The position numbers and the translations under genes were made by a program. This document shows, one piece after another, positions 5,645 through 37,012 of a DNA stretch of 38,101 bases (position 1 is the first letter of the stretch; each line of letters starts with the position of its first letter). The notes under the pieces were generated by a model that was given only the letters and a program-made list of their open reading frames with translations, did not search any database and was not told where the DNA came from. This DNA comes from a virus: positions 1 to 38,101 of the IMG/VR virus record IMGVR_UViG_3300038954_000529; one strand, given 5' to 3'.

Positions 5645-6282
5645 CTATTCCGGCAGTGATGCCAGAAACTGATCCATCGACACATGCACCCAGCCGTCTT
5701 TTCCGCGGCGGTTTGCGCCCTCGTCGTCGGTCACGCCTGCCGCGCCTTCGGCCAGACGCAGCAACTCGCCGAACGTCAGATTTTCGAGGTCGGCGGGTCG
5801 GAAGCCGGCGCTGCCAAGCAACCGGTAGACGTGGCCCCACGTGATGTCGCCGCCGCCGGATCCGGATCCGCGGCGGCGCATGCTTTTCCCTCGTTGCCCG
5901 TTGCCGGCGGAATGAATCCGCTCAGCAAAGCCCACATCGCCACGTTCGCCAGCTGGTCCAGCAACGCCTGCGATACCTCGTTTTCAAGCTGCTGCGTCGT
6001 GGGACGGCGGCCCGGCTTGGCGTGCGCCAGTTCCTGGACCCAAACCAGAGCGTTCTCCCAGGTGTCGCACAGCGCGTCTTCCAAGTGCGCGACCGCGGCA
6101 CTCGCCTGTGCGGTGAGGTTCCGCGGGTCCCGTGGGATATTCTGACCTGCCGACACGGCCATGCGCACGGCCTTGCGCGCGTTCTGCCCGGTGCGGTTTT
6201 CGGCGCGGCGGATGGCCGCCAGCGGGGCGCGGAACTGCCAGGGCTTCCCGCTGGGGTCCAGGAATTCGCAGAGGTCGTCCAT
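5645..6282 (-). CDS. Tail assembly chaperone, -1 frameshift product
   Basis: The first-frame protein can be extended by a -1 shift at G GGA AAA (5884-5890). Reading then moves from the first frame into a second frame that ends at 5645, giving a predicted 212-residue protein. The second part contains ITWGHVYRLLGSAGF and LENLTFGELLRLA, a pattern seen in the downstream domain of tail chaperones that starts work as a small helical module. In lambda the equivalent G/GT pair uses GGGAAAG, and the ratio matters for tail assembly. There is no separate well-supported start for the second frame near the slip site, which supports frameshifting over independent expression. Confidence 0.75.
5776..6282 (-). 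CDS. Tail assembly chaperone, unshifted product
   Basis: The 168-residue product starts at 6282 and ends at 5776. The N-terminal 130 residues are helical and look like a genuine chaperone domain: LAAIRRAENRTGQNARKA, then a long helix with WENALVWVQEL. After the slip site the unshifted tail is Ala/Thr/Pro-rich and probably unimportant. It lies between the tail tube gene and the tape measure gene, exactly where siphophage chaperones occur. The product should coat the tape measure during tail assembly and be absent from the mature virion. No other function is suggested by the sequence. Confidence 0.78.
   Translation of the reverse strand: MDDLCEFLDPSGKPWQFRAPLAAIRRAENRTGQNARKAVRMAVSAGQNIPRDPRNLTAQASAAVAHLEDALCDTWENALVWVQELAHAKPGRRPTTQQLENEVSQALLDQLANVAMWALLSGFIPPATGNEGKACAAADPDPAAATSRGATSTGCLAAPASDPPTSKI
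5884..5890 (-). promoter_or_regulatory. Programmed -1 ribosomal frameshift site
   Basis: On the minus strand the heptamer GGGAAAA is read in the first chaperone frame as G GGA AAA, which is exactly the X XXY YYZ layout. A -1 slip gives GGG AAA AGC and enters the second frame. GC-rich repeats (GGATCCGGATCC, CGGCGGCG) just downstream could form a stimulating hairpin. Confidence 0.8.
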
Positions 6283-6314
6283 GGGGGGCTCCGTGGGCAA
6301 CGTAGTAGGATGAA

Positions 6315-6341
6315 TGCGCGCGCGCACAGGCGCGCGCGCGT
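6315..6341. repeat. GC-alternating inverted repeat
   Basis: Two ten-base GC-alternating arms flank a five-base loop, ACAGG or CCTGT by strand, between the tail tube stop and the chaperone start. TAGGAT occurs on both outer sides. It could act as an RNA hairpin or adopt Z-DNA; no T-tract follows on the transcribed strand, so it is not a standard terminator. Confidence 0.6.
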
Positions 6342-6344
6342 AGG

Positions 6345-6358
6345 ATCAAATACGCCGG
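6345..6358 (-). promoter_or_regulatory. CGTATTTGAT junction motif, copy 2
   Basis: The minus-strand word CCGGCGTATTTGAT lies a few bases after the tail tube stop and before the GC hairpin. It belongs to the same junction family as the copies near 961, 7962, 10776, 17505 and 26014, with one changed base. Its role is unknown. Confidence 0.3.
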
Positions 6359-6359
6359 C

Positions 6360-6827
6360 CTAGCTGCCGGCGCTGTTCTTGGTCGGTGCGCCTTCGCCAC
6401 GCAGGGTCACGTCGACGGTGACTTCGTCGTCGTGCGGCTGCGGCACGCTCACCGAATCGACCCAGGCATCTCCGGTGAATCCGCTTCCGTCCGACCGTTT
6501 GACGGCGCAATCCGACAGCAGCGTGTCGTTGAGCATGGCGTTGACGAGCGTGTCGTACGCGGTCGTGTCACTGGAGTCGAATACCATGGTGAAGTTCACC
6601 ATCCATTCCTTCCTGGACGGCTTTCCTTCGGCCCAGCCGCTGCTGGCGCGACTGGTGGTGTCGGCGCGCCCCACGGTGCGGATTTGGACATCGATGTCGC
6701 GCACATCCACAGAGGCGCCGTTGATGGTGAACGTCCCTTCGCGTCCGGCTTCACCGTCGGATCCGGTGACGCCCAGCAGGCACCAGGCAGCGGCAAGCAA
6801 GATTCCGAACAGGGCGAGTAGCGACAT
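6360..6827 (-). CDS. Tail tube (major tail) protein with N-terminal hydrophobic segment
   Basis: The ATG at 6827 has a TAGGAG ribosome site, so a 155-residue product is chosen over the upstream start at 6860. After the first residues it has a strong hydrophobic run, LLALFGILLAAAWCLLGV, which looks like a signal anchor; a Cys is present but the lipobox is poor. The remainder (about residues 30-155) resembles phage tail tube proteins: a beta-rich domain with DVRDIDVQIRTVG, WMVNFTMVFDSSDT and VTVDVTLRGEG. Position between the tail terminator and the tail chaperones supports this call. A membrane segment at the front of a tail tube subunit is unusual, and the hydrophobic part may be removed or used for assembly. 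Confidence 0.72.
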   Translation of the reverse strand: MSLLALFGILLAAAWCLLGVTGSDGEAGREGTFTINGASVDVRDIDVQIRTVGRADTTSRASSGWAEGKPSRKEWMVNFTMVFDSSDTTAYDTLVNAMLNDTLLSDCAVKRSDGSGFTGDAWVDSVSVPQPHDDEVTVDVTLRGEGAPTKNSAGS

Positions 6828-6837
6828 GGTGTAGCTC

Positions 6838-7275
6838 CTATGCTTTTTCAACAAAGGCATGGACGCGCACCATCCAGTGCGGCCACCCTTGCGGATCGGT
6901 CGTGACTTCGGGCGAACGGGCCGTTACGCCGAAGAAGGCGTAACCGGACAAACTGAGCGCATTGCCGAAACCGGATTCGCCGGCGCGATGCAGCAGATCG
7001 GCGACCTTTTGGGCCTCGGCGCGGTTGGCGGCAAAGTTTCGGTTCGTGTACAACGCGACGGCAGCGTGCTGCAGCTCCCGCCAGCGCAGACGCGTGTGCC
7101 GCGGCGCAGCGCTGGTGATGTAGATCAAGCCCGCGGGCAGCGCGACATCCTTCGGCAGGTAGCCACCTGGCGCCCGATCGTATTGCCACAGTGCCTTGCC
7201 GTCGCCGTACGCGGCAAACACGGCGGAGACCGTGGCATCGGAGACCATGGCATTGTAGATGGCGGACTGCAGCAT
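6838..7275 (-). CDS. Tail terminator-like protein (DUF3168 type)
   Basis: The 145-residue product starts at an ATG overlapping the stop of the upstream gene (TGATG). The segment LQSAIYNAMVSDATVSAVFAA at the front, PAGLIYITSAAPRHTRL in the middle, and a paired C-terminal strand with HWMVRVHAFVEKA fit the fold of tail completion proteins that cap the tail tube. Such proteins join head and tail in siphophages. It lies between a HK97 gp10-like protein and the tail tube gene, the usual position. Confidence 0.75.
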   Translation of the reverse strand: MLQSAIYNAMVSDATVSAVFAAYGDGKALWQYDRAPGGYLPKDVALPAGLIYITSAAPRHTRLRWRELQHAAVALYTNRNFAANRAEAQKVADLLHRAGESGFGNALSLSGYAFFGVTARSPEVTTDPQGWPHWMVRVHAFVEKA

Positions 7276-7664
7276 CAGCGGCCTCGGTAGTCGAATCCCA
7301 CCCGCGACCACAGCCACGGAAAATGGTCCACGGCTTCGTCCATTGCCGGCATCAACGTCGGCCGCGGTGGATGATTCCGCCCGCCTTCTTCGTGGATTGC
7401 GCCGTACCATCCGGCGCGCGAGAAGCCCACGACGAATTCGGCCGGCGCGACCTCCTCCTGCATCGTGGACGCACGCAGGTTGCCGGTGACCAGTGCCGGC
7501 GAGTCCCCTGGCGCCGACGGCACCCTCGATCCATCGCTCAGACGCCGCTTGGCGATATTCACTACCAGCAGCGCGGCCTGCCCCACGGCCTGACGCGCGC
7601 CGGCCATGGCCATGCGGTCGACCGCACCGACGTTGTACCGCAGCTTGGGGCGTAACCGAATCAT
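7275..7664 (-). CDS. HK97 gp10-like neck/tail completion protein
   Basis: The start overlaps the stop of the upstream adaptor gene (ATGA). The 129-residue product has the typical elements of this family: a helix with AVGQAALLVVNIAKRRL near residue 30, the motif TGNLRASTMQEE near residue 62, a strand FVVGFSRAGWYGAIHEEGG, and a C-terminal MDEAVDHF helix. These match HK97 gp10 and related neck proteins, which complete the head-tail junction. Neighbouring connector and terminator genes support it. Confidence 0.8.
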   Translation of the reverse strand: MIRLRPKLRYNVGAVDRMAMAGARQAVGQAALLVVNIAKRRLSDGSRVPSAPGDSPALVTGNLRASTMQEEVAPAEFVVGFSRAGWYGAIHEEGGRNHPPRPTLMPAMDEAVDHFPWLWSRVGFDYRGR

Positions 7665-7954
7665 GGATGCACAGGCCTGCTGACGCGCTCACAGATGAGC
7701 TTCTGGGTCTTGATTCCCGGCAGGCGATGGATCGCGACAACGCGGTACTGCGCTTCGGTGCCGCCGCCTTCGTCGATGCCCAGGACGTCCTCGGGGCTCA
7801 CCGCCTCGTCGGCGTCCACCACCACGTCAATGGACTCGTCATGCACGGAGACAAACCCGAAAATGGTCACGGCATCCGCCAGCGACGCGGTCAGCTCCCC
7901 GTCGCTGTTGGACGGCGTGTTGGCGTAATGGGAGATCGGGTGCCGGGCGCTCAT
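7661..7954 (-). CDS. Head-tail adaptor (stopper-like) protein
   Basis: This 97-residue protein starts only a few bases after the end of the connector gene and is preceded by TAGGGG. It begins with SARHPISHYANTP and has a beta-rich core with ASLADAVTIFGFVSV and YRVVAIHRLPG. Size, content and position between connector and gp10-like genes fit a head closure or stopper protein. The sequence alone does not identify the family with certainty. Confidence 0.6.
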   Translation of the reverse strand: MSARHPISHYANTPSNSDGELTASLADAVTIFGFVSVHDESIDVVVDADEAVSPEDVLGIDEGGGTEAQYRVVAIHRLPGIKTQKLICERVSRPVHP

Positions 7955-7972
7955 GCCCCTAAATACGGCGGG
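7955..7972 (-). promoter_or_regulatory. CCGTATTTAGGGGC junction motif, copy 3
   Basis: The minus-strand sequence CCCGCCGTATTTAGGGGC covers the space between the connector stop (7980) and the adaptor start (7954). Its TAGGGG part can serve as the ribosome site of the adaptor gene, so at least part of this motif may be selected for translation rather than transcription. Confidence 0.35.
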
Positions 7973-7979
7973 CCTGAAC

Positions 7980-8528
7980 TCAGTGGATGGCGCGGCCGCG
8001 CTTGTACGCCTGCAGCTGGCGCATGATGTCGCTGTCGGCCAGCTTGCCCCAGGTGGCGAATGCCGGGCCGCCGCCGCTGACCTGCGGCGCGCCGGGGTTG
8101 TGGTAGGCGCGGTAGATGAGCTGCAGCATGATGGCCTTGAGTCCCGCAGGCACGGACGAATAGCCGGCGGTGTACGTCACCCGCCAGCGGTGGCGGCCTT
8201 TGCTCCAGCGGTCGTCGTCGAGGTAATTGCCGGCGCTGTCTTTCTTGCGGATTCCGTAGTCGCCGACCAGTTCGTAGTACTGCGTTTCGGTCGTGTCCAG
8301 CAGGTCCTGGACGTCGGCCACCGCGGTGATGGGGCGATGCGGCGGGATCAGCAGCACGCCGCCACCGTCGCAATCGTGCGATAGCCCGGACGTGCTGGAC
8401 AGCTTGATGCCGCACTCCCGCTCGATCCAGTCGTCCAGCCCGTCGAGTTCGATCTGCAGGACCGTGTCGCGAGCGCTGTGTCCGATGCCGATGACTTCCT
8501 TGGCCTGGGCCAGCGTAATCGTGCTCAT
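7980..8528 (-). CDS. Head-tail connector (gp6-like) protein
   Basis: The 182-residue product starts at an ATG overlapping the previous stop (ATGA). It begins with TLAQAKEVIGIGHSARDTVL, followed by LDGLDDWIERECG, the classic start of the HK97 gp6/SPP1 gp15 connector family, then IPPHRPITAVADV and a YTAGYSSVPAGLKAIMLQL segment near residue 125. These proteins form the ring below the portal. It is the first neck gene after the enzyme cassette, so head-tail gene order resumes here. Confidence 0.87.
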   Translation of the reverse strand: MSTITLAQAKEVIGIGHSARDTVLQIELDGLDDWIERECGIKLSSTSGLSHDCDGGGVLLIPPHRPITAVADVQDLLDTTETQYYELVGDYGIRKKDSAGNYLDDDRWSKGRHRWRVTYTAGYSSVPAGLKAIMLQLIYRAYHNPGAPQVSGGGPAFATWGKLADSDIMRQLQAYKRGRAIH

Positions 8529-8719
8529 GAGCCATCCTCCGGGCGCACATCGGCCGCCGCATCAATCCGCGCAATGACCTGGTCGGCCGGTCCGACGATG
8601 AACAGCAGGCCGCTGCGCATGTAGCGCCTGGCCAGGTGCTCGGCCATCACGTCGCGTTGTCCGATGCGCTTGGGGCGCATATTTATCGCCGTATTTTGCA
8701 GCCACTCGACGACCACCAT
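8525..8719 (-). CDS. Small unknown protein at end of the glycan cassette
   Basis: The 64-residue frame starts at an ATG overlapping the previous stop (TGATG) and ends overlapping the connector start, so it fills the space exactly. It has MVVVEWLQNTAINM, an Arg-rich middle, and GLLFIVGPADQVIARIDA. It has a neck-gene-like length and may belong to the virion group rather than to the enzymes. No family was recognised. Confidence 0.6.
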   Translation of the reverse strand: MVVVEWLQNTAINMRPKRIGQRDVMAEHLARRYMRSGLLFIVGPADQVIARIDAAADVRPEDGS

Positions 8720-9405
8720 CAGTGCCACTCCAGCGGAAAGCCCGCAGCCTTGCGCGCCTCATACGTCTGCTTGTCCCGGCCGTTGTCCCGGTCGTTGGCG
8801 CGATACAGCGCATCGCCGGCCACGCGCCGGTCGTTGCCCGGGTGGGCGTGCCGGATCAGCAGCATGTCGACGTACGCCGACCGGCCCAGCCGCTGCGACA
8901 CGTCCTGGAACTCGTTGTCGCACCACAGCGACCGGTATTCCGGGTGGTAGACGTAGCCGAAACGGTTCCAGTACTTCCGGCCCATGATCGGCAGCGTGTT
9001 GAGCACCCGGCCGGTGTAGCCGTCGTTGAGATGCAGCACGCCGTCGCCGTCTGCAAAGTGCTGCTGCAGCAGGCTTGCGACCAGGTCGTCCCATCCGCGG
9101 GCGACGGCCAGCATGTCGTCGGCGGCCAGGACCAGGATGTCGGGGTGCTCCGCGGACATCACCGCTTGTGCCGCGGCGTTGATGGCGCCGATCTTGGTGT
9201 TGTTGGCAAAACTGGTGGTGACGATGGCGTCAGGCGCCACGCTGCGGACCGCGTCGCCGACGCCGGCCATCGCGTCGTCGTCTTCGTCGACCACCACGGA
9301 ATAGATGATGTCGTGCCGGCCGCTTTGCCGTGCAATCCACCCTTGCAGCGCCGGGTAAAACAGGTGCGGGCGTCCGCGCGTCGGCCAGGCCACGGCTATC
9401 TTCAT
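8719..9405 (-). CDS. GT-A-like glycosyltransferase
   Basis: The 228-residue protein begins KIAVAWPTRGRPHLF, the usual first strand of a GT-A nucleotide-sugar binding fold. VVVDEDDDAM and DILVLAADDMLAV show acidic motifs expected at the metal and nucleotide site (around residues 38-47 and 90-102). A late conserved-looking stretch, YVYHPEYRSLWCDNEF, would contact the acceptor. The start overlaps the previous gene's stop (ATGA). It is probably a transferase acting in the same glycan pathway as its neighbours; donor and acceptor cannot be told. Confidence 0.7.
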   Translation of the reverse strand: MKIAVAWPTRGRPHLFYPALQGWIARQSGRHDIIYSVVVDEDDDAMAGVGDAVRSVAPDAIVTTSFANNTKIGAINAAAQAVMSAEHPDILVLAADDMLAVARGWDDLVASLLQQHFADGDGVLHLNDGYTGRVLNTLPIMGRKYWNRFGYVYHPEYRSLWCDNEFQDVSQRLGRSAYVDMLLIRHAHPGNDRRVAGDALYRANDRDNGRDKQTYEARKAAGFPLEWH

Positions 9406-10013
9406 GCGGGCCTCCGCTGCTGCGTCGCCGTGCCGCTGGGGCTGAAGCGGTAGTAGTAGACCACGTCCGACACTTCCACCTGCCGGCGCAGCTTGCCCTG
9501 GGCCTGCACGCGCCCGGCAAACTGCGCGTCTTCTCCGCAGTCAATTTCGGGAAACCTCGCAGCCAAAGCGATGTCGCGGCGCATCGGGTTGAGGTGGTTC
9601 GGGCGGCGAAAGTAGGTGCCCTCCGGATGCACGCCGTCGCGCTGGTACTGCAGCGAATGATGGAACAGGCGCGCGCTGCGCTCGTCGCCGTCGACAGTGA
9701 GTTCCCCCCAGATCCCCACCACGTCGGGCTCGCCGCGCAGCGCGGCCAGAATCAGTTCCACGTAATCCGATGACACCCAGTCGTCGTCGTCGACAAAAGC
9801 GACATAGCGACCACGCGCCTCGCGCAGCAGCCCATTGCGCTTGCCGCCGACGCTCGCCTGGCCGTCGTCGACGCGCACCAACACTTCCACCGGCAGCGCC
9901 CCGCCGAAGTCGGTCGCCTGCATGATCTGCGCGTGGAGGTGCTTGCGCAGGCGCGTCAGCATCTGAGCGCGGCTGCGCAGGCTGCAGATAAGGATGGACA
10001 GAATCGGCGGCAT
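9402..10013 (-). CDS. Family 2-like glycosyltransferase
   Basis: The 203-residue product starts PPILSILICSLRSRAQ, typical of a GT2 transferase. It has a GGKRNGLLREARGRYVAFVD core followed by the DDDD metal motif (about residues 72-78), and later MRRDIALAARFPEIDCGED, where the acidic pair fits the acceptor/catalytic ED motif of GT2 enzymes. It is a soluble, single-domain enzyme without membrane segments. It sits between two other GT-A-like genes with short or overlapping spacing, so co-expression is likely. Confidence 0.82.
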   Translation of the reverse strand: MPPILSILICSLRSRAQMLTRLRKHLHAQIMQATDFGGALPVEVLVRVDDGQASVGGKRNGLLREARGRYVAFVDDDDWVSSDYVELILAALRGEPDVVGIWGELTVDGDERSARLFHHSLQYQRDGVHPEGTYFRRPNHLNPMRRDIALAARFPEIDCGEDAQFAGRVQAQGKLRRQVEVSDVVYYYRFSPSGTATQQRRPA

Positions 10014-10015
10014 GA

Positions 10016-10744
10016 TCAGATGCCCTGGGCGACGATAATGGCCTGGTCGAACGGCGGCGTGTCCGGGCGCGCGCCGTTTCGCCAGACGGCAAACTGCTCG
10101 GCCGCATTGCCGTAAGGAAGGCCCAGGCGCGCAATCAGGATGCTGGCGCAGGTCTGGTCGTGGCGGTGCCCGGGCCAGATTTGCGGCAGCGACGTTGGCA
10201 TCAGCGGCAGCGATTCGCGATACGCTCGGGTGTGTTCCGGATGCCGCCACGGGCCGCGGAAGCAGCCGGCCTTCGCTGCGTCGGCCATGCCTGACAGGAA
10301 CGCCTGCGATTTGGCGCCGGCCACATCGAGGCCGAAGCCGATCGCGTAGTTCAGCGGGATCCGGTGGGCTTCTTCACGCCGCAGGCTGTGCCACGCCAGG
10401 CATTCGTCGGTCGACCACTGCCCAACCGTCCAGGCGTCCCCGATGATCCACGCACCGTCGCGCGCCAGACGTTCAAAGATCGGCGCCAGCGGCCGCACCG
10501 CCCAGCAGCTCGCGTCGAGCCACAAGACCAGCTCCGCACCCTGGCGCTGCGCTTCGCGGATGGCGTGCAGCTTGAATTCGTACGGTGACTGCTGATGCGT
10601 GGGCGACTGCGGCGGATAGTCGTCGCGGTATAGCCACCGCAGGCCGCTGAAGCCGACTTGGTCCAGAGACTTCTCCAGACGATCGACGCCTTCCGGATAC
10701 CGGCCGCCGACGCCCACACTGACCACTGCGCACTTGCGTTCCAT
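10016..10744 (-). CDS. GT-A-like putative glycosyltransferase
   Basis: The 242-residue product starts MERKCAVVSVGVGGRYPEGV. The segment GAELVLWLDASCWAVRPLAPI contains a DAS triplet in the position of the DXD metal motif of GT-A enzymes, and GHRHDQTCASILIARLGL resembles the late HDQ motif of such folds. There is no membrane segment. It follows the sulfotransferase by about 30 bases and uses an ATG at 10744 with AGGGG-like upstream sequence. It is best called a putative sugar transferase of the same cassette. No named family is certain. Confidence 0.6.
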   Translation of the reverse strand: MERKCAVVSVGVGGRYPEGVDRLEKSLDQVGFSGLRWLYRDDYPPQSPTHQQSPYEFKLHAIREAQRQGAELVLWLDASCWAVRPLAPIFERLARDGAWIIGDAWTVGQWSTDECLAWHSLRREEAHRIPLNYAIGFGLDVAGAKSQAFLSGMADAAKAGCFRGPWRHPEHTRAYRESLPLMPTSLPQIWPGHRHDQTCASILIARLGLPYGNAAEQFAVWRNGARPDTPPFDQAIIVAQGI

Positions 10745-10769
10745 GCTTGCCCCTGTGGCTTTTGCTGAC

Positions 10770-10782
10770 GCCTCTAAATACG
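10770..10782 (-). promoter_or_regulatory. CGTATTTAGAGGC junction motif, copy 4
   Basis: The sequence CGTATTTAGAGGC includes the last codons and the stop of the sulfotransferase gene. It lies just upstream of nothing but the gene ending there, about 30 bases after the start of the putative transferase on the other side. It matches the other junction motifs, but coding constraints may explain it. Confidence 0.25.
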
Positions 10783-11460
10783 TTCCCACTGCGGCGCCCA
10801 GACATCGCACACCTCGTCGTAGAGCACGTGCCATGCCGGGCGCCGGCGACGGTAGGCGCGGCGCAGTTCGGCTTCGTCGCCGCGCGTCAGGCGACTGTGC
10901 TTGACCTGCAGCTCATGCGGCGCCTGGATCGACGGCTTGCCCAGCCTGGCGGCCAGCGCGTCGAGGCATTGCTGATAGCGTTCGACAATACCCACAAACA
11001 GGAAATCGCGCATGCCCGGTTCGAACCGTGCCGGAAGCCACATAAACCAGTGCACCGGGCACGTGCTCACGAACCGTTCCAGCGATTCGGCGTAGTGGCT
11101 CAGCCGGTGGTCTGCCTTGCCGTGAAACCCGATGGTTCCGCCGGCGGTCTTGCGCCAGTAGTCAAACAGAGACCGCAATTGTTCGAACGGATCGCGCAGG
11201 AACGTGACGTACTGCCCCGCGGGGATCTCCGCCGGCGGATTGCAGACAAAGTCCTGCCCTGCTGCATCCTTGCCCCACAGCCGGTCGAAGTGACCGGACC
11301 AGACCTTCGGGTGCGGCGCCCGCAGGATCTGCCACGGCATCACCGGCTTGACCTGGTCCGCGCCGAACCATCGCCGGAACGCTTCGCGCAGCGACGTGCC
11401 GCCGGTCTTGGGCACGTGCAGGTGCAGGATAGGCTGTGCGGGGTCGTACGCGCGCGGCAT
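10774..11460 (-). CDS. Sulfotransferase (PAPS-dependent)
   Basis: The 228-residue product begins with HLHVPKTGGTSLREAF (about residues 13-28), the 5'-phosphosulfate loop of sulfotransferases, with the catalytic-type Lys. FLRDPFEQLRSLFDY (near residue 88) gives the 3'-phosphate loop with Arg and Ser. It resembles the family of carbohydrate 2-O-sulfotransferases that act on sugars, here without a membrane anchor, so it should act in the cytosol. PAPS would come from the host. It starts two bases after the preceding methyltransferase. A sugar sulfotransferase in a phage late operon is rare as far as I know. Confidence 0.87.
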   Translation of the reverse strand: MPRAYDPAQPILHLHVPKTGGTSLREAFRRWFGADQVKPVMPWQILRAPHPKVWSGHFDRLWGKDAAGQDFVCNPPAEIPAGQYVTFLRDPFEQLRSLFDYWRKTAGGTIGFHGKADHRLSHYAESLERFVSTCPVHWFMWLPARFEPGMRDFLFVGIVERYQQCLDALAARLGKPSIQAPHELQVKHSRLTRGDEAELRRAYRRRRPAWHVLYDEVCDVWAPQWERI

Positions 11461-11462
11461 GG

Positions 11463-12077
11463 CTACTCCGCAAACAGATCCACGTTGGCGGCCAGGACTG
11501 AAGCCGAAGGCGTGCGGCCGGCGCCGCGCCGCATGATCGCCTGCACTTCGCCGCCGGTGCTGGTGTTGCCCATGGCGAAGTCCGTGCCGGCATGCAGCAG
11601 CTCGTCGCCGCAGATGTCGGCCAGCGTCCGGAACGTCTGCAGCGTGGCGTAGTGGTTGCCGTGTCCTGGCCAGTGCCCCTGCATCGGCCAGTTGTGGATC
11701 ATCAAACCGCCGACGCGGCAGACGGTGCGGATGTTGCGCAGCGCATGGCACGCGTTCCTGGTGTGCTCCAGCGTGCCGCAGTTGGTCACCACGTCGTATT
11801 CGGCCGGCAGCGCCCGCTTGACCAGTTCGTTGCGCAGCGAGCGGCAACACAAATCGATGTCCTGCGCGCCGTCTTGCCCGTTGAGGTCCACGCTGACGTG
11901 TTCGACGCCGCGCGCCTGCCACCAGGGCCTGGCCGGCGCGTCGTGGCAGGCGATGCGGCGGTCGTCCAGGTAGAGGTGCTGGTTGCCCAGCTCCAGCATG
12001 CGGAGGCCCTGCAGCGGCAGGTCGGCCTGTTCCAGTCCGCGCATGATCAAAGCCAGGGATTTGGTGGTGATGCCCAT
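11463..12077 (-). CDS. Class I SAM-dependent methyltransferase
   Basis: The 204-residue product contains GLRMLELGNQHLYLDD (about residue 24-39), a motif I-like strand-loop, then VEHVSVDLNGQDGAQDIDL for motif II and YDVVTNCGTLEHTRN, the motif IV region common in small-molecule methyltransferases. The C-terminal part has VCRVGGLMIHNWP, as in motif VI. It lies between an FkbM methyltransferase and a sulfotransferase. A sugar O-methyltransferase role is plausible; the target is unknown. It is cytosolic and starts at ATG 12077, 28 bases after the FkbM gene. Confidence 0.75.
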   Translation of the reverse strand: MGITTKSLALIMRGLEQADLPLQGLRMLELGNQHLYLDDRRIACHDAPARPWWQARGVEHVSVDLNGQDGAQDIDLCCRSLRNELVKRALPAEYDVVTNCGTLEHTRNACHALRNIRTVCRVGGLMIHNWPMQGHWPGHGNHYATLQTFRTLADICGDELLHAGTDFAMGNTSTGGEVQAIMRRGAGRTPSASVLAANVDLFAE

Positions 12078-12104
12078 GCAATGCTCCGAATTGAAGTGGA
12101 AACG

Positions 12105-12695
12105 CTAACGCTTCAGGATCAGGTTCTCCGGCGTACGGTGGTGTTGCTTGAAGCCGTTGCGTTTGGCCCAGTCGCGTACGCGCGCAGCGTGGGCGTCGAA
12201 TTCGACGACGACCATCTGCAGGCGCGGCAGGCGCGCAATCGGCATGGCTTCCAGCAGGGCGACCGAGTCGCCTTCGGTGTCGAGGTCCACCAGGTCAAAG
12301 TCTGTGCCGTGTTGGTCGAGCAACTGATTCCAGGTGATGCAGGCGACCGGGTACGTTTCGAACCGGACGTTGTGGCCGCGCCACTGGCGGACGTGGTTTT
12401 CGTCGAAGGTGCTCACCGCATCCGGCGTGCAGGACATGTTCCGGACGCCCGCATCAAACGCCAACGCGGCCTGCAGAATGACGACCTGCGGGAAGTCGGC
12501 CATGTTGCGTTCGAGCCCGGCCAGCACGGGCGGGGATGGTTCCAGCATCACGCCGGACCAGCCCAGCTCGGCCAGGCGGCGGGTGTTGGAGAAGGTGAGG
12601 CCGTCGTAGGCGCCGACATCGAGGAAGCGGCCGGCGCCCTGACGCGGCTGGAAGTAGTCGAGGATGACCTGTTCTTCATCTCGCTGCGAATACAC
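12105..12695 (-). CDS. FkbM-family methyltransferase
   Basis: The 196-residue protein shows the FkbM pattern: GRFLDVGAYDGLTFSNT (about residues 22-38) for SAM binding, GWSGVMLEPSPPVLAGL, and FDLVDLDTEGDSVALLEAM near residue 138. FkbM enzymes methylate hydroxyls of small molecules and often sugars in surface glycan clusters. It starts with GTG directly after the stop of the long glycosyltransferase frame and has GGAGGG upstream. It is likely part of the glycan decoration pathway. Confidence 0.9.
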   Translation of the reverse strand: MYSQRDEEQVILDYFQPRQGAGRFLDVGAYDGLTFSNTRRLAELGWSGVMLEPSPPVLAGLERNMADFPQVVILQAALAFDAGVRNMSCTPDAVSTFDENHVRQWRGHNVRFETYPVACITWNQLLDQHGTDFDLVDLDTEGDSVALLEAMPIARLPRLQMVVVEFDAHAARVRDWAKRNGFKQHHRTPENLILKR

Positions 12696-15128
12696 TCAGC
12701 GGCCCTCCGTTGCGGGGGCCGCGCCGTCTACTACTGCGTGGGCGGCTCCACCGGTTCCATGTAAAGCCCGTGCTCCGTCTCGTAGACGCGCATCGGGACC
12801 TTGCGGCTCTTGCGGCCGTCCACGTCCATCCGCACCTTGCTTGGCATCGCTCGTCGTTCCGGCTGCGTCTGCCGCCACATCAGCGCGGCCACACACAGAC
12901 CGAACGCGAGCGCCGCCAGCACTGCCAGAGTGAGCAAGATCATGCGCTGCATTCCACACCTCACGCACCAAATCCGGGACATGCCAATCGATCCGTTCTA
13001 CCACGCCCTGCTCGCCGGGCACAGGACCGCACTGGCCGTTCCAGTCCAGCCAGGCGCGCTCCTGGGCGGTGTGGCCTTCGACCGCCGCGTAGAATTGCTT
13101 CTTGGCGGCCATGCGCGCCCGCGGCAGGCAGTGGCCGAGATGGTAGAGCACGCAAGCGTCGCGCAGATCGCGCACCGTGGCCACGTTGTCGTCGCGCGAC
13201 CACAGCGGACGTCCGGTGTGATCGGTCGGGAAGACGTGCGTCTTCCATTGGTTCGAGTACCGCCAGGGCACGCAGCGAACGTGCGGCCAGATGGCGCCCT
13301 GGACGCGGCAGTCCAGCCCGATTTCGCGCACCGGCTGGCCCCATCGCGCGGGGCGGCCGGGCGTGAGGATGTGGTGATCGAGGTCGTGCCAGGGCGTGAC
13401 CGCCAGCGGCGCACCGCCGCGGATACGGCCGTCGCGCAACGCCTTGACGTAGTGCTCGAACCCGGTCCAGATTTCGTCGCCGTCCAAGATCAGGAGGTAA
13501 TTGCCGGTGGCGTGGCGCAGGCATGCTTTGCGCATCGCGATCCGGCAGGAGTCTTCGCCGGCCTGGTCCCTTGTGGTAATTGCGCCGTGCCACAGGTTAA
13601 ACGGGGCACGGACCATGCGAATCTTGCGCTCGGGATCCGGGAACGCCTCGATCTGCTGCAGCGTGTCGTCTTCCGGCCATTCCCAGATGGCTTCGCGGCC
13701 GTAGGCGATGATGATTTCGTGGACGTGTCCGTAGATGGACGCGAGCGCGGCCTTGACGGTGGGGCCGCAGAACCAGGCGTTCATGATGGCGGTGATGCGA
13801 ATGCCACCAAATTGCGACCGCGTATTGAGCCACGGTACATAAAAGCAGTGTGGCTCGCCGCCTGCACAGTACTGCAGGTGTCCCAACTGAAAGCGCATCT
13901 TCTCCAGGCCGTGACGTTTCCGGTAGAGTGGCGAGTTCTTGCCGAGTTTAGCCGTCGGCGTTTGAGCAATTGTGTGCGCCTTGGCGACAAATTCATCGTC
14001 GTCTGCATCGCACGGAACGAAATCCCAGCCCGATCCCGGACCGTGTTCGTCCATCGTGACCGGCAATTTCCAGCCCACGCCAGGCGCGCCGACACACCGC
14101 GCTTCGGCAATCACCATGCCCCAGCCTTCAAACTCAGACGGCGCCAGAACAGCCTCCGCATCCATCATCAGCCGGTATTTCGTCGCGTCGTTTACGCCGT
14201 CGAAGCGGTGAATCTTGTGCTGCGGATCCGTGCTGCCCGGGTGTTCGGTGCAGGTGCCGATCGCCACCAAATCCATCTGGCCGGGATACTCGCGCGCGAC
14301 GCGCCAGGCGAGGTCCCAGCGTTTATGCGGCACGCCGCGGCCGCAGGCGACGACGTAGCGCCGGCCGCGCAGCGGTTCGGGGAGTTCCAGCTTCTGGGCC
14401 TCGTCGATCGCGTGATCATTGACTGCGGGCGGCAGCACCTGGACCGGCGGGCACTGGTCGCCCAGGTCCAGCCATTCGCGGAAGTACCGGGCGGACAGGT
14501 CGCTGTTGCAGAGCACGAGGTCCGCGCCGGCGTAGACGTCGCGGTACTGGTCGTGGTGGGCGTAGTCGCGGGCCAGTCCCTGATGATGTTCGGCGCACCA
14601 GTTCGGCGTTTCGAAGTTCCAGGCGATCAGCGGAATCGCGCGTTCGTGCGCCAGGCGCAGCGCGCGGCGCGACGTCGGGTGCTTGCCTTCGCAGATGACC
14701 ACGTCCCAGTCCGGCACGTGGTCCGGTTCGCCGCGGAGGAAATGGAGGTTGTCGCGTGCCGGGTAATCGTCGAGCCACGCCGGCCGGGCATCTTCGCTGC
14801 AGATCGTGACGTCGTGGCCGTTGGCGGCCAGGCACCAGGCCATCTGGCAGATGTGAATGCGTCCGCCGCTGTAGTGCCGGGACAGGCGCAGCCAGACGAG
14901 CACCCGCTGGCGTCCGGCCATGACATCGCCCAACTGCAGTTGCGGCGTCTGCGTCACGTCTCGCCGTCTGGTTTCTGCCGGTCCCTCCATTTCGACCGGC
15001 ACACGGCTGACGTAGCCGGCGTCGCTTAACTCGTTCAGCGTGATTTTGTCGTCGATCCGCACGACCCAGTTGGGGCGCTGGACGCAGCCGAGGAAGCTGA
15101 ACTTGCGCAGGACGCGGTGCAGAGACAT
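12696..15128 (-). CDS. GT4-GT2 fusion glycosyltransferase
   Basis: The open frame gives 810 residues. The N-terminal part (about residues 70-430) is a GT4-like GT-B enzyme, with RVLVWLRLSRHYSGGRIH, ADLVLCNSDLSARYF, CGRGVPHKRWDLAWRVA and APSEFEGWGMVIAEA (the E-x7-E donor site). The second part (about residues 445-720) is a GT2-like enzyme with ITAIMNAWFCGPTVKAA and LLILDGDEIWTGFEHYV, the DGDE metal site. Two linked sugar additions are implied. The start has AAAGG upstream. The last 80 residues look out of frame, because a separate membrane ORF (12731-12952) lies there in another frame. So the natural end may be close to 12960, with a lost stop. Confidence 0.85.
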   Translation of the reverse strand: MSLHRVLRKFSFLGCVQRPNWVVRIDDKITLNELSDAGYVSRVPVEMEGPAETRRRDVTQTPQLQLGDVMAGRQRVLVWLRLSRHYSGGRIHICQMAWCLAANGHDVTICSEDARPAWLDDYPARDNLHFLRGEPDHVPDWDVVICEGKHPTSRRALRLAHERAIPLIAWNFETPNWCAEHHQGLARDYAHHDQYRDVYAGADLVLCNSDLSARYFREWLDLGDQCPPVQVLPPAVNDHAIDEAQKLELPEPLRGRRYVVACGRGVPHKRWDLAWRVAREYPGQMDLVAIGTCTEHPGSTDPQHKIHRFDGVNDATKYRLMMDAEAVLAPSEFEGWGMVIAEARCVGAPGVGWKLPVTMDEHGPGSGWDFVPCDADDDEFVAKAHTIAQTPTAKLGKNSPLYRKRHGLEKMRFQLGHLQYCAGGEPHCFYVPWLNTRSQFGGIRITAIMNAWFCGPTVKAALASIYGHVHEIIIAYGREAIWEWPEDDTLQQIEAFPDPERKIRMVRAPFNLWHGAITTRDQAGEDSCRIAMRKACLRHATGNYLLILDGDEIWTGFEHYVKALRDGRIRGGAPLAVTPWHDLDHHILTPGRPARWGQPVREIGLDCRVQGAIWPHVRCVPWRYSNQWKTHVFPTDHTGRPLWSRDDNVATVRDLRDACVLYHLGHCLPRARMAAKKQFYAAVEGHTAQERAWLDWNGQCGPVPGEQGVVERIDWHVPDLVREVWNAAHDLAHSGSAGGARVRSVCGRADVAADAAGTTSDAKQGADGRGRPQEPQGPDARLRDGARALHGTGGAAHAVVDGAAPATEGR
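12731..12952 (-). CDS. Small single-pass membrane protein
   Basis: The 73-residue product starts MQRM after GAGGTG and has a hydrophobic segment, LLTLAVLAALAFGLCVAALM, followed by a charged soluble tail (RRAMPSKVRMDVDGRKSRKVP) and Glu/Pro at the end. It overlaps, in a different frame, the last part of the glycosyltransferase gene. Its amino acid content looks more natural than the shared frame, so it is probably real. It could anchor or help the transferases at the membrane, but there is no direct sign of this. Function unknown. Confidence 0.6.
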   Translation of the reverse strand: MQRMILLTLAVLAALAFGLCVAALMWRQTQPERRAMPSKVRMDVDGRKSRKVPMRVYETEHGLYMEPVEPPTQ

Positions 15129-15141
15129 GGGGGGCCTTTCC

Positions 15142-15172
15142 AATGCGGAATGGGGAATGGGGAATGAGGAAT
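15142..15172. repeat. GGAATGS heptamer array
   Basis: The plus strand reads in steps of seven, GGAATGG with one GGAATGA, between the capsid stop and the glycosyltransferase start. It is a gene-junction copy of a dispersed family. Confidence 0.8.
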
Positions 15173-15215
15173 CCGGGCGCCGCGGCGCGACGCCCGGGGG
15201 ATTTAGCTACGTGGG

Positions 15216-16676
15216 TCAGCTGAGGTTGTTTTCGTTGCCCAAGCGGACGAACGCGCGAGGCTGCATGGCACGGCCTCCGATGTTCATCGTGGCGACGAAC
15301 AGGATGAGACCCTTTTCGATGTGCCGGTGTTCACTGCGCATGATCACGATCTCTTCTTCCAGCGCGATGAAGTACTGGCCCCAGTTGCCGAGCATCACAT
15401 CGCCTTCGGTGCCGACGTTCAGTCGCTCGGTCGAATAGACAGGAATGCCCAGCAACTGATCAAAGGCGCCGTTCGCCACGCCGTCCGAGTAGATCGGTCG
15501 GCCGTCGCTGTCCTTCGTCTTGACAAGCTTTTCCATGGCATCGTCGGCAATCACCCACATGAGGTTACGCCGGTGGTGCGCCTGGATGGCATGCTTCATC
15601 GTGACCAGATCTTCGTACGTCACGGTGTTGGCCGTGGTCCGCGCCCATTCGCGGACGTTGGTGTCGTTCTTGATGCCCAGGCATTCCTTTTGGGACGCGC
15701 CTCGGCCGGTCATGATTTCTTTTTCGACCGTGTGCCGCATGGCGCCCTGGAACAGCATCGGAATCAGCGCTTCCAGGTCGATGGCACTGCGTCGCAACAG
15801 CGTGCGGTGCACGGCCGTCTGCGCAGTGAGTTCGTAGGCGTTGATCGTGGTCGTGCCGAAGTCCGCATCCGTGTCGTGGTACTCATCACCTTCGGTGGTG
15901 CGCGACACGGAGACGCCGCCGTACTCGTCGGCATCCGTCTGCGTCAGCTTGGGCCACTTCAGCGCCCCGGTGGTCGCCGGCATGCGCGTGCAGCGTTCGT
16001 AGAGCATCGCCGGCTCGAACGCGAGCATCTGCAGCACCGACTGGTAATCTTCCGGAATCAGCTTGGCCGGGCTCGTGTCCGTAGACAGCATGGTTCCGGT
16101 CGTCGCCTTACCGCGCAGGACCGTGCCGATCCAGCTGCGCGGCATGAGCGCGCCCTTATCACGCAGCGCCGGGCTGTCCGCTTCCAGCAAAGCCGCCTTT
16201 TCCCCGGACAGTGTCGAGGCCTCGCCGCGCAGGTACGCCAGAAACGCGTCCGTGTGCGCCTTGCCGCGCAGGTCGTGGTCAGCCGGTTCCGCCGGGCGGC
16301 CGGTGGGCATGCGAGGCGTATCGACTGCGTTGAGGCCGCGGAGTTCGTTGAGCAGCTCGATGCGGCCGATCTGGTCCTTGGCTGCGGCAGCCTTGCCCTT
16401 CAGCCCGTCGAACTTTTTGACCAGGTCGTCGTACATGCTGCGGGCCTGCTTGGCCTTTTCCTTGTCGCCCGCCTTGTCCGCCTCTTCGGCCTTGCCCTGC
16501 AGCCCTTCCATATCCTTCAGGCACTGCTCCATCTCGCCCTGCAGACCGGTGAGGTCCGGCGGGGTGAGCGTGGCGGCGGCGTCGCCGTTGACGTTGAGCA
16601 TCATCATCAGCATGGCGCCGACGAAGCCCACCAGGGCCAGCACGGCCAGCGGGTTTTGGGTGATCATTTCCTTCAT
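15216..16676 (-). CDS. HK97-type major capsid protein with N-terminal hydrophobic segment
   Basis: The ATG at 16676 follows GGAGGG by ten bases; a TTG start at 16697 is possible but weaker. The 486-residue product has an N-terminal hydrophobic run (LAVLALVGFVGAMLMMML), then a coiled-coil delta-like domain (about residues 40-110), then an HK97 fold: SWIGTVLRGKATTGT, LIPEDYQSVLQM, ELTAQTAVHRTLLRRS, MWVIADDAMEKLV and GIPVYSTERLNVGT. The protease before it should remove the delta domain. The hydrophobic start is unusual for a capsid protein; it could be cleaved with the delta region or tie assembly to the membrane. Confidence 0.9.
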   Translation of the reverse strand: MKEMITQNPLAVLALVGFVGAMLMMMLNVNGDAAATLTPPDLTGLQGEMEQCLKDMEGLQGKAEEADKAGDKEKAKQARSMYDDLVKKFDGLKGKAAAAKDQIGRIELLNELRGLNAVDTPRMPTGRPAEPADHDLRGKAHTDAFLAYLRGEASTLSGEKAALLEADSPALRDKGALMPRSWIGTVLRGKATTGTMLSTDTSPAKLIPEDYQSVLQMLAFEPAMLYERCTRMPATTGALKWPKLTQTDADEYGGVSVSRTTEGDEYHDTDADFGTTTINAYELTAQTAVHRTLLRRSAIDLEALIPMLFQGAMRHTVEKEIMTGRGASQKECLGIKNDTNVREWARTTANTVTYEDLVTMKHAIQAHHRRNLMWVIADDAMEKLVKTKDSDGRPIYSDGVANGAFDQLLGIPVYSTERLNVGTEGDVMLGNWGQYFIALEEEIVIMRSEHRHIEKGLILFVATMNIGGRAMQPRAFVRLGNENNLS

Positions 16677-16693
16677 GGGCGTGAGCCCTCCGT

Positions 16694-17461
16694 TCAAGCG
16701 TTGAGTTTCAGCGCGTCCAACTGGGCGCGCCGCAAAGCCAGGTCGCGTTCAATCGCCGGAGCGACGGGCTCGTACGACGGCTGCTGCGGTTCGGGTGGCG
16801 CCGGATCCGCGGACGGAGTGGCGCCGGCCGGTGCCTGGGCCGACTGCGAGGTGTCGCCGGGGGCGGCGGCCGGAGGAGCCGCCGCGTCCTGGGTATCGCC
16901 GGGTTGCGGATTCTCCTGCGCCTTGCTGCTGAGGATCACCGCGTTGATGTTGATGGGGTTGTTGGTGACGATCGTTTCGACCAGTCGCACCTGCGTGTGG
17001 ATCAGCACGCGCTGGCCGTCTTCGTTCTTTACGCGCCACTCCAGCGGTTCGAACCCGACCGACAGAAACTTCGCCTCGCCGGCATTGATGCGCCGGCGCG
17101 CTTCCTGGGCGAATTCGGACGGGGTGTAGTGCGCGCGGATCAGCAGCCCGTAATCGTCTTCGCGGGCTTCGACGATCCAGCCGATCGTCTCCATCACGTC
17201 GCCGCCGCCGGCCATGTGGCGGACCATCAGCGGCACGCGGCCGGCCGGCACCACCTGCGCGATCGTGCGCGTGAACGCGCCGCGCTCGAACGCCTCGCGC
17301 TCCGTGTCCAGCGCATCCCACACCGCCGCATAGCCCACCAGTTCGCCCTGGCCCTCGGCCGCCTTGCCTTCAAGCTGGAGCCGCGGTTCGGTGGCCGACA
17401 GGAACCGGCGCGCATGCGGCGAGCAGATGCGGTCTTCGATCGTAGGCAGTGTCAGCGGCAT
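16694..17461 (-). CDS. Prohead protease (HK97 family)
   Basis: The 255-residue product, started at ATG 17461 with GGAG six bases upstream, contains ELVGYAAVWDALDTEREAFE, RGAFTRTIA and a PLMVRHMAGGGDVMETIGW core with the catalytic His near residue 84, followed by FLSVGFEPLEWRV around residue 135 for the Ser. These match HK97 prohead proteases. The last 80 residues are Pro/Ala-rich and probably disordered. It lies directly before the major capsid gene, the normal pairing. A TTG at 17467 also fits but offers no better ribosome site. Confidence 0.87.
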   Translation of the reverse strand: MPLTLPTIEDRICSPHARRFLSATEPRLQLEGKAAEGQGELVGYAAVWDALDTEREAFERGAFTRTIAQVVPAGRVPLMVRHMAGGGDVMETIGWIVEAREDDYGLLIRAHYTPSEFAQEARRRINAGEAKFLSVGFEPLEWRVKNEDGQRVLIHTQVRLVETIVTNNPININAVILSSKAQENPQPGDTQDAAAPPAAAPGDTSQSAQAPAGATPSADPAPPEPQQPSYEPVAPAIERDLALRRAQLDALKLNA

Positions 17462-17500
17462 ATCCAACTCCGGATGCGCAGCGTTGCGGGCTATCCGGAA

Positions 17501-17519
17501 TTAAATACGGCGGGGCGGG
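17501..17519 (-). promoter_or_regulatory. CCGTATTTAA junction motif, copy 5
   Basis: The minus strand reads CCCGCCCCGCCGTATTTAA. It lies between a heptamer array (17523-17556) and the protease start (17461), about 40 bases upstream of the ATG. Its sister copy at 26010-26029 has the same flanking array, so the two form one composite element. Confidence 0.4.
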
Positions 17520-17522
17520 AGT

Positions 17523-17556
17523 GAATGCGGAATGGGGAATGGGGAATGCGGAATGG
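17523..17556. repeat. GGAATGS heptamer array with GACGCTGGCGCG flank
   Basis: Units GGAATGC and GGAATGG run in register and are followed by GGAAGACGCTGGCGCG. The same flank is found next to arrays near 26080, 28390, 33783 and, inverted, 30113, which shows that a defined element, not just simple repeat slippage, has been copied. Confidence 0.85.
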
Positions 17557-17583
17557 AAGACGCTGGCGCGGGTGGCGAGGCGG

Positions 17584-17844
17584 CTAGGTGTGGATGATCT
17601 GGTAGATGCGGGAGCGGTGGAGGCGGTAGTGGCGGGCGAGTTCGGTGGCGGGCGTGCCGGCGGCGTAGGCGGCGCGGATGGCCGCGTCGCGCGCGGCGGT
17701 GCGGGATGTGTCCAGGGCGCGGGATAGCGTGGCGGGCGATACGCCGTAGTCGGCGGCGAGTGAAGATAGCGTGCGGCCCGCGGCGTGTTGCGCGCGGGCC
17801 TGGGCGATCTGGGCGTCGGTGAGCTTGCGCGGGCGGGGGCTCAT
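17584..17844 (-). CDS. Tandem helix-turn-helix protein
   Basis: This 86-residue protein has two successive HTH motifs: LTDAQIAQARAQHAAGRTLS with SSLAADYGVSPATLSRAL (about residues 8-44), and ATELARHYRLHRSRIYQII (about residues 66-84). The pattern is like the C-terminal DNA-binding part of resolvases and Hin-type invertases, without a catalytic domain. It starts by overlapping the stop of the upstream gene (ATGA). It sits between head genes, upstream of the protease, where no regulator is normally found. It may regulate late genes or bind phage DNA ends; this is open. Confidence 0.75.
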   Translation of the reverse strand: MSPRPRKLTDAQIAQARAQHAAGRTLSSLAADYGVSPATLSRALDTSRTAARDAAIRAAYAAGTPATELARHYRLHRSRIYQIIHT

Positions 17845-18029
17845 TGGGCGAGCGCTTCGCGGTCCTCGGCCCAAACCAGAGCCGCATCCATAGAGCGGAA
17901 CTCTGCACAGTCGCGCCCGTCGCAGCGCACCATCACGCGGTATCCCTGCGGGCCGTCGCTGCCCGGAGGAGCGTAATGCTCCGCGAACTCGTACCCCTGA
18001 GCTTCCATTCTCTTGCGCCGTTTGTTCAT
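17841..18029 (-). CDS. Small hypothetical protein
   Basis: The 62-residue product begins MNKRRKRMEAQGYEFAEHY and ends AALVWAEDREALAQ. It has Cys near residues 36 and 41 but no clear metal motif. The gene has a sensible ribosome site (AGGAAG) and overlaps the next start. It lies among head genes and could be a DNA- or protein-binding accessory. No family was recognised. Confidence 0.6.
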   Translation of the reverse strand: MNKRRKRMEAQGYEFAEHYAPPGSDGPQGYRVMVRCDGRDCAEFRSMDAALVWAEDREALAQ

Positions 18030-18135
18030 CGTCAGGCTTCCTGTTCTGTGCCGGGCTCATCCCCGACACCTGCATCCTACAATGCCTGCGGCGCGGTGTC
18101 TAGTTTTTTTGCAGAATAATTTAGGGGCGGGTGGT

Positions 18136-18570
18136 TCAGCGGATTGCGATGAGGTGGTCGCGCGCCGCGTGTGCCGCCCACCACGCGCGGTGCTCGAAGG
18201 CCGACATCTCGTTGTGTGGCACGTCGGCCAGCAGTTTGCCGATGGCGCTGGCGGCGCGCTGCAGGTCGTCGACGCGGCGGCGCAGTTGTTCGGCCGGATC
18301 CGGCTGGTGCCATGCGCGGTGGCGGGCGTGCAGTTCGACGAGGCGCGGGCAGCGGATCGCGTCGGCGATTTTGGACACGTCGCGTTTGCGCGGCATCTTG
18401 CGCGCGCCTTCAAACGCTGACAGCGTAGTGTAGCTGATGCGGATCTGCTTGGCCGCGTCGGCCAGCGTCAAGCGCGCGGCGTCGCGCCACCGCGCAAGAA
18501 TCCCCGCGGCTTCCTGCAGGGCCGGCGACGGCTGGGGCGTGGATGGCGTTTGCAAGCGTACCGTTTCCAT
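18136..18570 (-). CDS. XRE-family HTH regulator in the head operon
   Basis: The ATG at 18570 has an excellent AAGGAGAG ribosome site. The 144-residue product has an HTH from about residue 21: EAAGILARWRDAARLTLADA, then AAKQIRISYTTLSAFEGARK. The C-terminal part is helical and His/Arg-rich (RAWHQPDPAEQLRRRVDDLQ). Such a protein is normally in the early switch, not between the Mu F-like head gene and the protease. A 106-base AT-richer gap follows it (18030-18135), with room for a promoter or operator. It may be an autoregulated late control gene or a moron. Confidence 0.75.
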   Translation of the reverse strand: METVRLQTPSTPQPSPALQEAAGILARWRDAARLTLADAAKQIRISYTTLSAFEGARKMPRKRDVSKIADAIRCPRLVELHARHRAWHQPDPAEQLRRRVDDLQRAASAIGKLLADVPHNEMSAFEHRAWWAAHAARDHLIAIR

Positions 18571-18643
18571 TTCTCTCCTTCGCCCTTGTCTTCGGTCGGC
18601 CCCGACCGTTCGCCGCTCAGAAACGATTTCTGCGCCTGGCCCT

Positions 18644-29169: not shown

Positions 29170-29559
29170 CTACGCCTCCGTCTCGTCGCCCACGGCGCAA
29201 GCGGCGTGGCCGGGTTCAAGGGCAAAAAACCAGTTGTCGGGGTCGCAGTAGCTGACGGGTTTGCCAAGGTCTCGCGCGATCTGAATTTCGGCGGCGACGC
29301 CGCGGCTGCGCGTAACACCGTGCAGGTTCAGCACCCACAGTTCATCGCAGGCGGCAATCATGCGCGTGTCGAAGTCGCGCCAGTACTCCCATTCGATCGG
29401 CAGTCCGCAACGCGTGGCGATCGGGTGACTGTGAACGATCGGGCTGTAAACGTGCTTGCCGGACTTCATCAGCGCGCCGGCTGCATGGCAGACCGCATCG
29501 AAGCGCTGCGCCATCACCGCCGGATCGTCGTGCGTGTAAGGCGATGCGAGATAGATCAC
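29170..29559 (-). CDS. DUF1937-like (nucleoside deoxyribosyltransferase-like) protein
   Basis: The GTG at 29559 overlaps the previous stop (GTGA) and has AAAGGAG upstream, so 129 residues are called. VIYLASPYTHDDPAVMAQRF is the family opening. GKHVYSPIVHSHPIA, WRDFDTRMIAACDELWVLNL and GVAAEIQIARDLGKPVSY follow in order. The fold is related to nucleoside 2-deoxyribosyltransferases, with the Asp and Glu of the active site likely present. These proteins are common in phages and may act in nucleotide metabolism or defence signal removal; neither is proved. Confidence 0.8.
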   Translation of the reverse strand: MIYLASPYTHDDPAVMAQRFDAVCHAAGALMKSGKHVYSPIVHSHPIATRCGLPIEWEYWRDFDTRMIAACDELWVLNLHGVTRSRGVAAEIQIARDLGKPVSYCDPDNWFFALEPGHAACAVGDETEA

Positions 29560-36960: not shown

Positions 36961-37012
36961 TGCTTCACGTATGGGAAGTTGCCTGCTCACTGGCGCGGTG
37001 GCGGGAGATGCG

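Follow-up and report, generated by a model that had tools for sequence, protein, structure and literature searches.

Organization of the locus

The window examined here is a 38.1 kb viral record from IMG/VR (IMGVR_UViG_3300038954_000529, taken at full length), and the genes we examined lie mostly on its minus strand. In the order of that strand they encode the terminase, portal, a morphogenesis protein, a helix-turn-helix (HTH) protein, the protease and an HK97-type major capsid protein (MCP), followed by a cassette of seven enzyme open reading frames (ORFs; 15128-8719, minus strand), a small ORF, the head-tail adaptor, neck genes, the major tail (tube) protein (MTP) and the tape measure protein. 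The original prediction was that seven enzymes stand in a row between the capsid and neck genes, and all seven ORFs were found on the minus strand where it had put them, with the capsid gene upstream and the adaptor gene downstream. We read the cassette as a virion-glycosylation island, and we put the probability of this reading at roughly three in four: a GT4-GT2 fusion glycosyltransferase (GT) would place or extend an O-glycan on the C-terminal serine of the capsid and tail-tube proteins, and the other enzymes would extend or modify that glycan.

The capsid gene (15216..16697, minus strand) was identified by PF05065 (E = 7e-43) and PHROG 10. Its product, the proposed glycan acceptor, ends ...GNENNLS, and the AGC codon of the last serine (15219..15221, minus strand) marks the O-glycosylation site that we propose from the C-terminal glycans of the Che8 type. 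The proposed second acceptor is the MTP (6360..6860, minus strand; PHROG 1407, E = 2e-17), which ends ...NSAGS with its serine codon at 6363-6365. The head-tail adaptor (7980..8528, minus strand; PHROG 442, E = 8e-23; PF05135) sets the downstream boundary of the cassette.

From the fusion to the adaptor, the junction gaps were 0, 27, 2, 29, 2, -4 (ATGA), -1 (TGATG, into the small ORF) and -4 (ATGA, into the adaptor). Tight spacing with ATGA/TGATG overlaps had been predicted; the spacing is close and overlaps do occur from the GT2 gene to the adaptor, whereas the junctions between the two methyltransferase genes and between the sulfotransferase-like gene and the next GT gene (GTx) are short gaps. 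The overlaps would be consistent with co-translation of the distal half of the cassette with the adaptor. The cassette is closed by a small conserved protein (8525..8719, minus strand), the start of which overlaps the stop of the last GT gene and the end of which overlaps the adaptor start. Look-alike ORFs precede the adaptor in the related contigs L002, L003, L007, L012 and L024, and the protein weakly matches (E = 0.011) the tether domain described below.

The fusion enzyme and its N-terminal domain

The core enzyme of the cassette is the GT4-GT2 fusion (12696..15128, minus strand). Its GT4 domain matched Glyco_transf_4 and Glycos_transf_1 in Pfam and gave profile matches to solved GT4 enzymes, while the C-terminal GT2-like domain gave a weak Pfam match (Glycos_transf_2) and has a conserved LDxDEIW motif. 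Homology stops near residue 759, and a small membrane-protein-like ORF (12731-12982, minus strand; probable membrane helix, weak DUF5337 match) lies across the tail beyond this point in a different frame. No homologue of the fusion was found among 50,697 phage records. Bacterial genomes yielded only partial matches, to the GT4 part; the best was on a Deltaproteobacterial metagenome-assembled genome contig, where a shorter relative of the GT4 half (L043:6944-8074; 34% over residues 75-418) lies outside recognised phage context. Longer variants of about 830-950 residues were seen in L011:6461-9319, L031:8921-11782 and L036:8894-11395, and their additional N-terminal part resembles a further GT2 domain; in L031 and L036 the capsid protein lacks the terminal serine.

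The first ~66 residues of the fusion (14931..15128, minus strand) make up a domain that we propose to be a tether. When all ORFs of 42 loci were searched with it, the only matches were the N-termini of fusions and, in ten non-redundant loci, small ORFs between capsid and fusion. Ten of the 27 members of this domain matched PHROG 2322, annotated as head-tail connector protein (best E = 1e-4). An AlphaFold2 (AF2) model was confident over residues 1-50. Among the viral folds that matched it best were those of a Mycobacterium phage connector, of structural proteins and of DUF7210/DUF7443 proteins, a single match reaching E <= 0.001, and a fold search of the PDB with the model gave no significant match. 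The modelled domain thus appears to resemble small virion or connector proteins of phages, and we infer that it may recruit the enzyme to the virion. In L015:7295-9574 the domain is present twice, in tandem.

The fusion stays beside the capsid gene

Scans with the fusion recovered 41 IMG/VR viral contigs, all of which have a capsid gene upstream of it (41/41; near-duplicates are included, and the independent number is smaller, roughly 30). This capsid is homologous to that of the window in 39/41 contigs, at distances ranging from overlap to about 900 bp, and where the space between the two genes is roomy it is usually filled by one small ORF. In L038 and L041 the capsid genes upstream are of different families, PHROG 4523 (accompanied by a PHROG 122 decoration gene) and PHROG 9953, respectively. 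The head genes of L039, L040 and L042 are rearranged and the capsid and fusion are still adjacent. A reverse search was run from the capsid with an alignment of six capsid sequences. Nearly all relatives with a readable downstream region carry the fusion, L063 and L066 among them, and L060 is cut just past the fusion start. Since the fusion holds the same place in dozens of related contigs, one of which shares five of the seven genes, the arrangement is not due to chance. The island is usual but dispensable in this lineage, because most capsid relatives carry the fusion and one contig (L062) has the capsid followed by the adaptor.

The linkage to the capsid gene spans three capsid families, and this argues against the view that the cassette modifies a glycan of the host surface, bringing about serotype conversion or superinfection exclusion, and that its place in the late operon serves expression alone. 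Sulfated and methylated caps do occur on bacterial surface glycans, which counts in favour of that view, and serotype-altering phage GTs are well known (PMC12619734). Such a role would leave the C-terminal serine on the capsid and tail-tube proteins unexplained. It also finds no partners at the locus: among the window ORFs scanned there was no flippase, lipid-linked sugar transferase, polymerase or export gene, in agreement with the original prediction that no lipid carrier, polymerase or export gene is present, and no match to the GtrA flippase or the GtrB lipid-linked glucosyltransferase of a Gtr-type serotype conversion cassette. We consider host-surface modification very unlikely.

Tailoring enzymes and their turnover

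Downstream of the fusion lies a gene for an FkbM-family methyltransferase (12105..12695, minus strand; PF05050, E = 6e-9; TIGR01444 above cut-off), which has a homologue in the cassette of contig L070 (33.7% identity). The next product (11463..12077, minus strand) is a class-I S-adenosylmethionine (SAM) methyltransferase-like protein, the identity of which is weak and is suggested by marginal matches to Methyltransf_12, Methyltransf_23 and Methyltransf_11 (E = 9e-4 for the first). Three GT-like proteins close the series. GTx (10016..10744, minus strand) is GT-A-like, has no family match and is 34.6% identical to an L070 protein (E = 2e-33). The GT2 enzyme (9402..10013, minus strand) matched PF00535 and PHROG 14775 (E = 7e-40) and has a 44% L070 homologue, and GTy (8719..9405, minus strand) matched PHROG 14945 (E = 3e-17), with 39% identity in L070. 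On these profile matches, the FkbM and GT2 assignments may be called firm. By tblastn, the window GT2 is 29-37% identical to proteins of Mycobacterium, Gordonia and Actinoplanes phages, the GTs of Che8, Avani and LittleE standing at 35-37%.

Between the methyltransferases and the GT-like genes lies a putative sulfotransferase (10774..11460, minus strand) that would use 3'-phosphoadenosine 5'-phosphosulfate (PAPS). By inspection, it has a 5'-phosphosulfate-binding (5'-PSB) loop near the N-terminus (HVPKTGGTSL) and a 3'-phosphate-binding (3'-PB) motif, TFLRDPFEQLRSLFDYWR; its match to PHROG 3347 (Galactose-3-O-sulfotransferase) is near full length and weak (E = 9e-4). No relative was confirmed in viral contigs and none was present in 12 related records, and a sequence search of the PDB gave no meaningful match. 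In a profile alignment with the sulfotransferases of related cassettes, the 3'-PB-like region alone aligned, and not significantly. The assignment made in the original prediction is carried mainly by the two motifs, together with the weak PHROG match, and is weakened by scores below the Pfam cut-offs. Sulfation of a sugar by the cassette is plausible, and relatives have sulfotransferase families in the same place.

The interval between fusion and adaptor holds differing gene sets in the relatives. Class-I methyltransferases are commonest, and other types include Sulfotransfer_1/3, GT2, radical SAM/SPASM, FkbM, polysaccharide pyruvyl transferase, NAD epimerase, DegT aminotransferase with GNAT, and PIG-L deacetylase. 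Sulfotransferases in L012 and L010 scored above the PF00685 cut-off (42.6 and 41.3 bits vs 22), the former also resembling the Nod-factor sulfotransferase NoeE, and 6/54 tailoring proteins of the relatives matched PF13469 at E <= 0.01. L070 has the fusion, FkbM, GTx, GT2 and GTy in common with the window (33-44% identity) in a different order, while in some contigs, such as L066, the fusion stands without any extra tailoring gene. A search for the same seven-gene order beside the capsid in relatives had been suggested; the order is not kept, and a fixed seven-gene unit was rejected, the fusion being the sole constant and five of the seven genes being shuffled in L070. Because the relatives retain the fusion by the capsid while their tailoring enzymes change, rapid evolution of the glycan chemistry is probable in this lineage.

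These partners bear on a further alternative, that the enzymes glycosylate or hypermodify phage DNA. DNA-modifying phage GTs are known (PMC12619734). The FkbM, sulfotransferase, PIG-L, pyruvyl transferase and DegT partners are, however, glycan-tailoring types, the cassette is placed with the capsid and not with replication genes, and the ORFs scanned included no recognisable base-modification gene. DNA modification is highly improbable, and both it and host-surface modification fit less well than virion glycosylation.

A C-terminal serine on capsid and tail-tube proteins

In non-redundant relatives, 30/34 capsid proteins and 13/13 MTPs end in serine, compared with 17/222 proteins of other families on the same contigs, although shared ancestry inflates these counts and makes naive probabilities too small. 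The signature is absent from the adaptor, portal and protease families of these contigs. The serine stands out because the residues before it (-2 to -9) are little conserved, with ~15% identity on average between pairs. The L038 and L041 capsids, which are of other families, also end in serine.

The same ending was seen in isolated phages that carry a homologue of the window GT2. In Che8 the MCP ends ...TGS and the MTP ...DGS. A prediction for four further phages with such a homologue was recorded beforehand, at a time when Che8, Avani, LittleE and Forza were known, and 7/8 of their MCPs and MTPs had a terminal serine. For all eight phages the figure was 14/16, vs 7/36 for other virion proteins of the same genomes. 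It was 1/12 in six phages taken as GT-less, a status that comes from the annotation of the regions seen and from absence from the GT2 match list, not from a full search. A third protein, encoded between the capsid and the MTP, also ends ...TGS in the Gordonia phages Forza (gp88, L082:23644-24333) and GodonK (gp77, L086:14458-15150), and is possibly another acceptor.

The serine could be kept for assembly or protein stability and have nothing to do with the GTs, which would act elsewhere. Shared ancestry within the lineage and the retention of the serine in L062, which has no fusion gene nearby, both speak for this explanation. It does not account well for the recurrence of the serine in unrelated capsid and tail proteins of phages picked only for their GT2 homologue, as against its rarity in the phages taken as GT-less, nor for flanking residues that are not conserved, and we regard it as unlikely. 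Alternatively, the enzymes may decorate another virion protein, such as a tail fibre, the small tether-domain protein or the adaptor. The MCP and MTP are indicated solely by co-localisation and the serine signature, and a small protein with the domain of the fusion does lie between capsid and fusion in the ten loci mentioned above. That protein is missing from many loci and its C-termini vary, for which reason it was not favoured as the acceptor, and the signature is seen in MCP and MTP but is missing from adaptor, portal and protease. Decoration of another virion protein is accordingly quite unlikely.

Proposed mechanism and points against it

In the mechanism that we propose for virion glycosylation, the fusion with its virion-type domain would be produced alongside the head proteins and recruited, in the cytosol, to capsid (and tail-tube) subunits soon after their synthesis. 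There it would attach or extend an O-glycan at the C-terminal serine of these subunits. The other three GT-like enzymes would lengthen the chain, and the two methyltransferases and the sulfotransferase-like enzyme would modify or cap its sugars, with nucleotide-sugars, SAM and PAPS supplied by the host. Very probably the product is a methylated and possibly sulfated glycan on the last serine of the shell and tail-tube proteins, and it may serve in shielding or adhesion. Cytosolic decoration of a virion protein had been predicted for this DNA, and the capsid-GT linkage, the virion-type domain, the homology to enzymes of virion-glycosylating phages and the serine on both proteins argue for it; catalysis on that serine, the order of the sugars, sulfation and methylation are predicted.

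Several observations weigh against virion glycosylation, in addition to the limits attached above to the serine counts and to the GT-less set. The lineage is known here from its genes, with no isolate known, and the virion glycan is a prediction. The sulfotransferase-like protein missed curated cut-offs (PF03567, 11.8 bits vs 22, E = 0.26; PF06990, 11.4 vs 27), and its single-sequence AF2 model was unusable (confidence score, pLDDT, 37). In L062:3403-4867, on a 5.2 kb fragment, the capsid gene is followed directly by the adaptor with no fusion between, and the capsid still ends in serine. The MCPs of LittleE and phiAsp2 have no terminal serine, and Microbacterium phage Merry has none on either MCP or MTP. 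The choice of Merry came earlier and was prompted by a published report of a phage glycosyltransferase; its GT is unrelated, is not among the window-GT2 homologues and lies far from the head genes. Terminal serine as a marker of any phage GT was rejected since Merry fails, and because Merry has an unrelated GT, the signature appears to track GTs of the window-GT2 type.

Other features of the window

The DNA had been described as a prophage. The record is a viral contig that may be incomplete, and it has no match to tyrosine (PF00589) or serine (PF00239) integrases; because none was found, the label is unproven despite a CI/S24-type repressor at 36953-38011 (plus strand). Two HTH or regulator-like genes lie in the head operon (17584-18075 and 18136-18657, minus strand); one of them separates the genes for the morphogenesis protein and the protease, and the other overlaps the former gene. 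A DUF1937 or nucleoside 2-deoxyribosyltransferase-like protein is encoded at 29170-29592 (minus strand), and an Rfam scan of 6000-18000 gave no match.

Comparison with known systems

Virion glycosylation has been described for Che8 and other Mycobacterium phages (Freeman et al. 2023, as cited in PMC11256854, PMC12619734 and PMC11600133). The Che8 MCP reportedly carries glycans (PMC11256854), and glycans of Mycobacterium phages were seen at the C-termini of capsid and tail-tube subunits (PMC12619734). Phage enzymes are already known to glycosylate virions, and LittleE provides a known GT island located between capsid and connector. The open-licence papers searched did not mention a fusion that carries a virion-type domain and holds a fixed place in an uncultured lineage, a rotating tailoring set with sulfotransferases or a cross-lineage serine signature.

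Virion glycosylation has so far been shown in Mycobacterium phages, and our results would extend it to a large uncultured lineage with a capsid-tied core enzyme and rotating tailoring chemistry. They name candidate acceptor residues and a C-terminal serine signature that lend themselves to mass spectrometry and to a survey across sequenced phages. We give even odds to a broader proposal, in which a GT with a virion-type domain writes fast-changing glycans (methylated, sulfated, pyruvylated, amino or deacetylated, varying with the phage) on the terminal serine of both capsid and tail tube throughout a broad uncultured lineage. If this is true, a terminal serine common to both proteins would allow virion glycosylation to be predicted from sequence in unrelated phages.

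Like the lineage described here, the Mycobacterium phages encode their own GTs; Che8 gp108 is a GT2 homologous to that of the window (36%), the Che8 MCP and MTP both end in serine, and cluster O phages carry an O-methyltransferase beside three GTs. In contrast, the Che8 GTs lie at the far end of the genome and not by the capsid, Che8 was not found to have a GT4-GT2 fusion bearing a virion-type domain, and the annotated neighbours seen included no sulfotransferase. In LittleE (Omegavirus, cluster J) the island has the position seen in the window, with the MCP followed by GT gp15 (a window-GT2 homologue), a kinase, two GTs, further genes, GT gp21 and a head-tail connector, and its MTP ends in serine. 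Its island has no annotated fusion, methyltransferase or sulfotransferase, its MCP ends in alanine, and the island as a whole is not homologous. The kinase, gp16 (L071), is Ser/Thr-kinase-like and lies inside the GT island between MCP and connector. The Gordonia phages Forza, GodonK and Yvonnetastic have a GT2 homologue near head or tail genes or the terminase, and their MCPs and MTPs end in serine, but theirs are two-gene GT pairs with no tailoring enzymes annotated beside them. Marine OM43 phages also encode Sulfotransfer_3-type genes, a type that recurs in relatives of the cassette. Their function is stated to be unclear (PMC10580990), whereas in the cassette relatives the sulfotransferases sit in a capsid-linked glycan cassette, a setting that offers a likely role for phage sulfotransferases.

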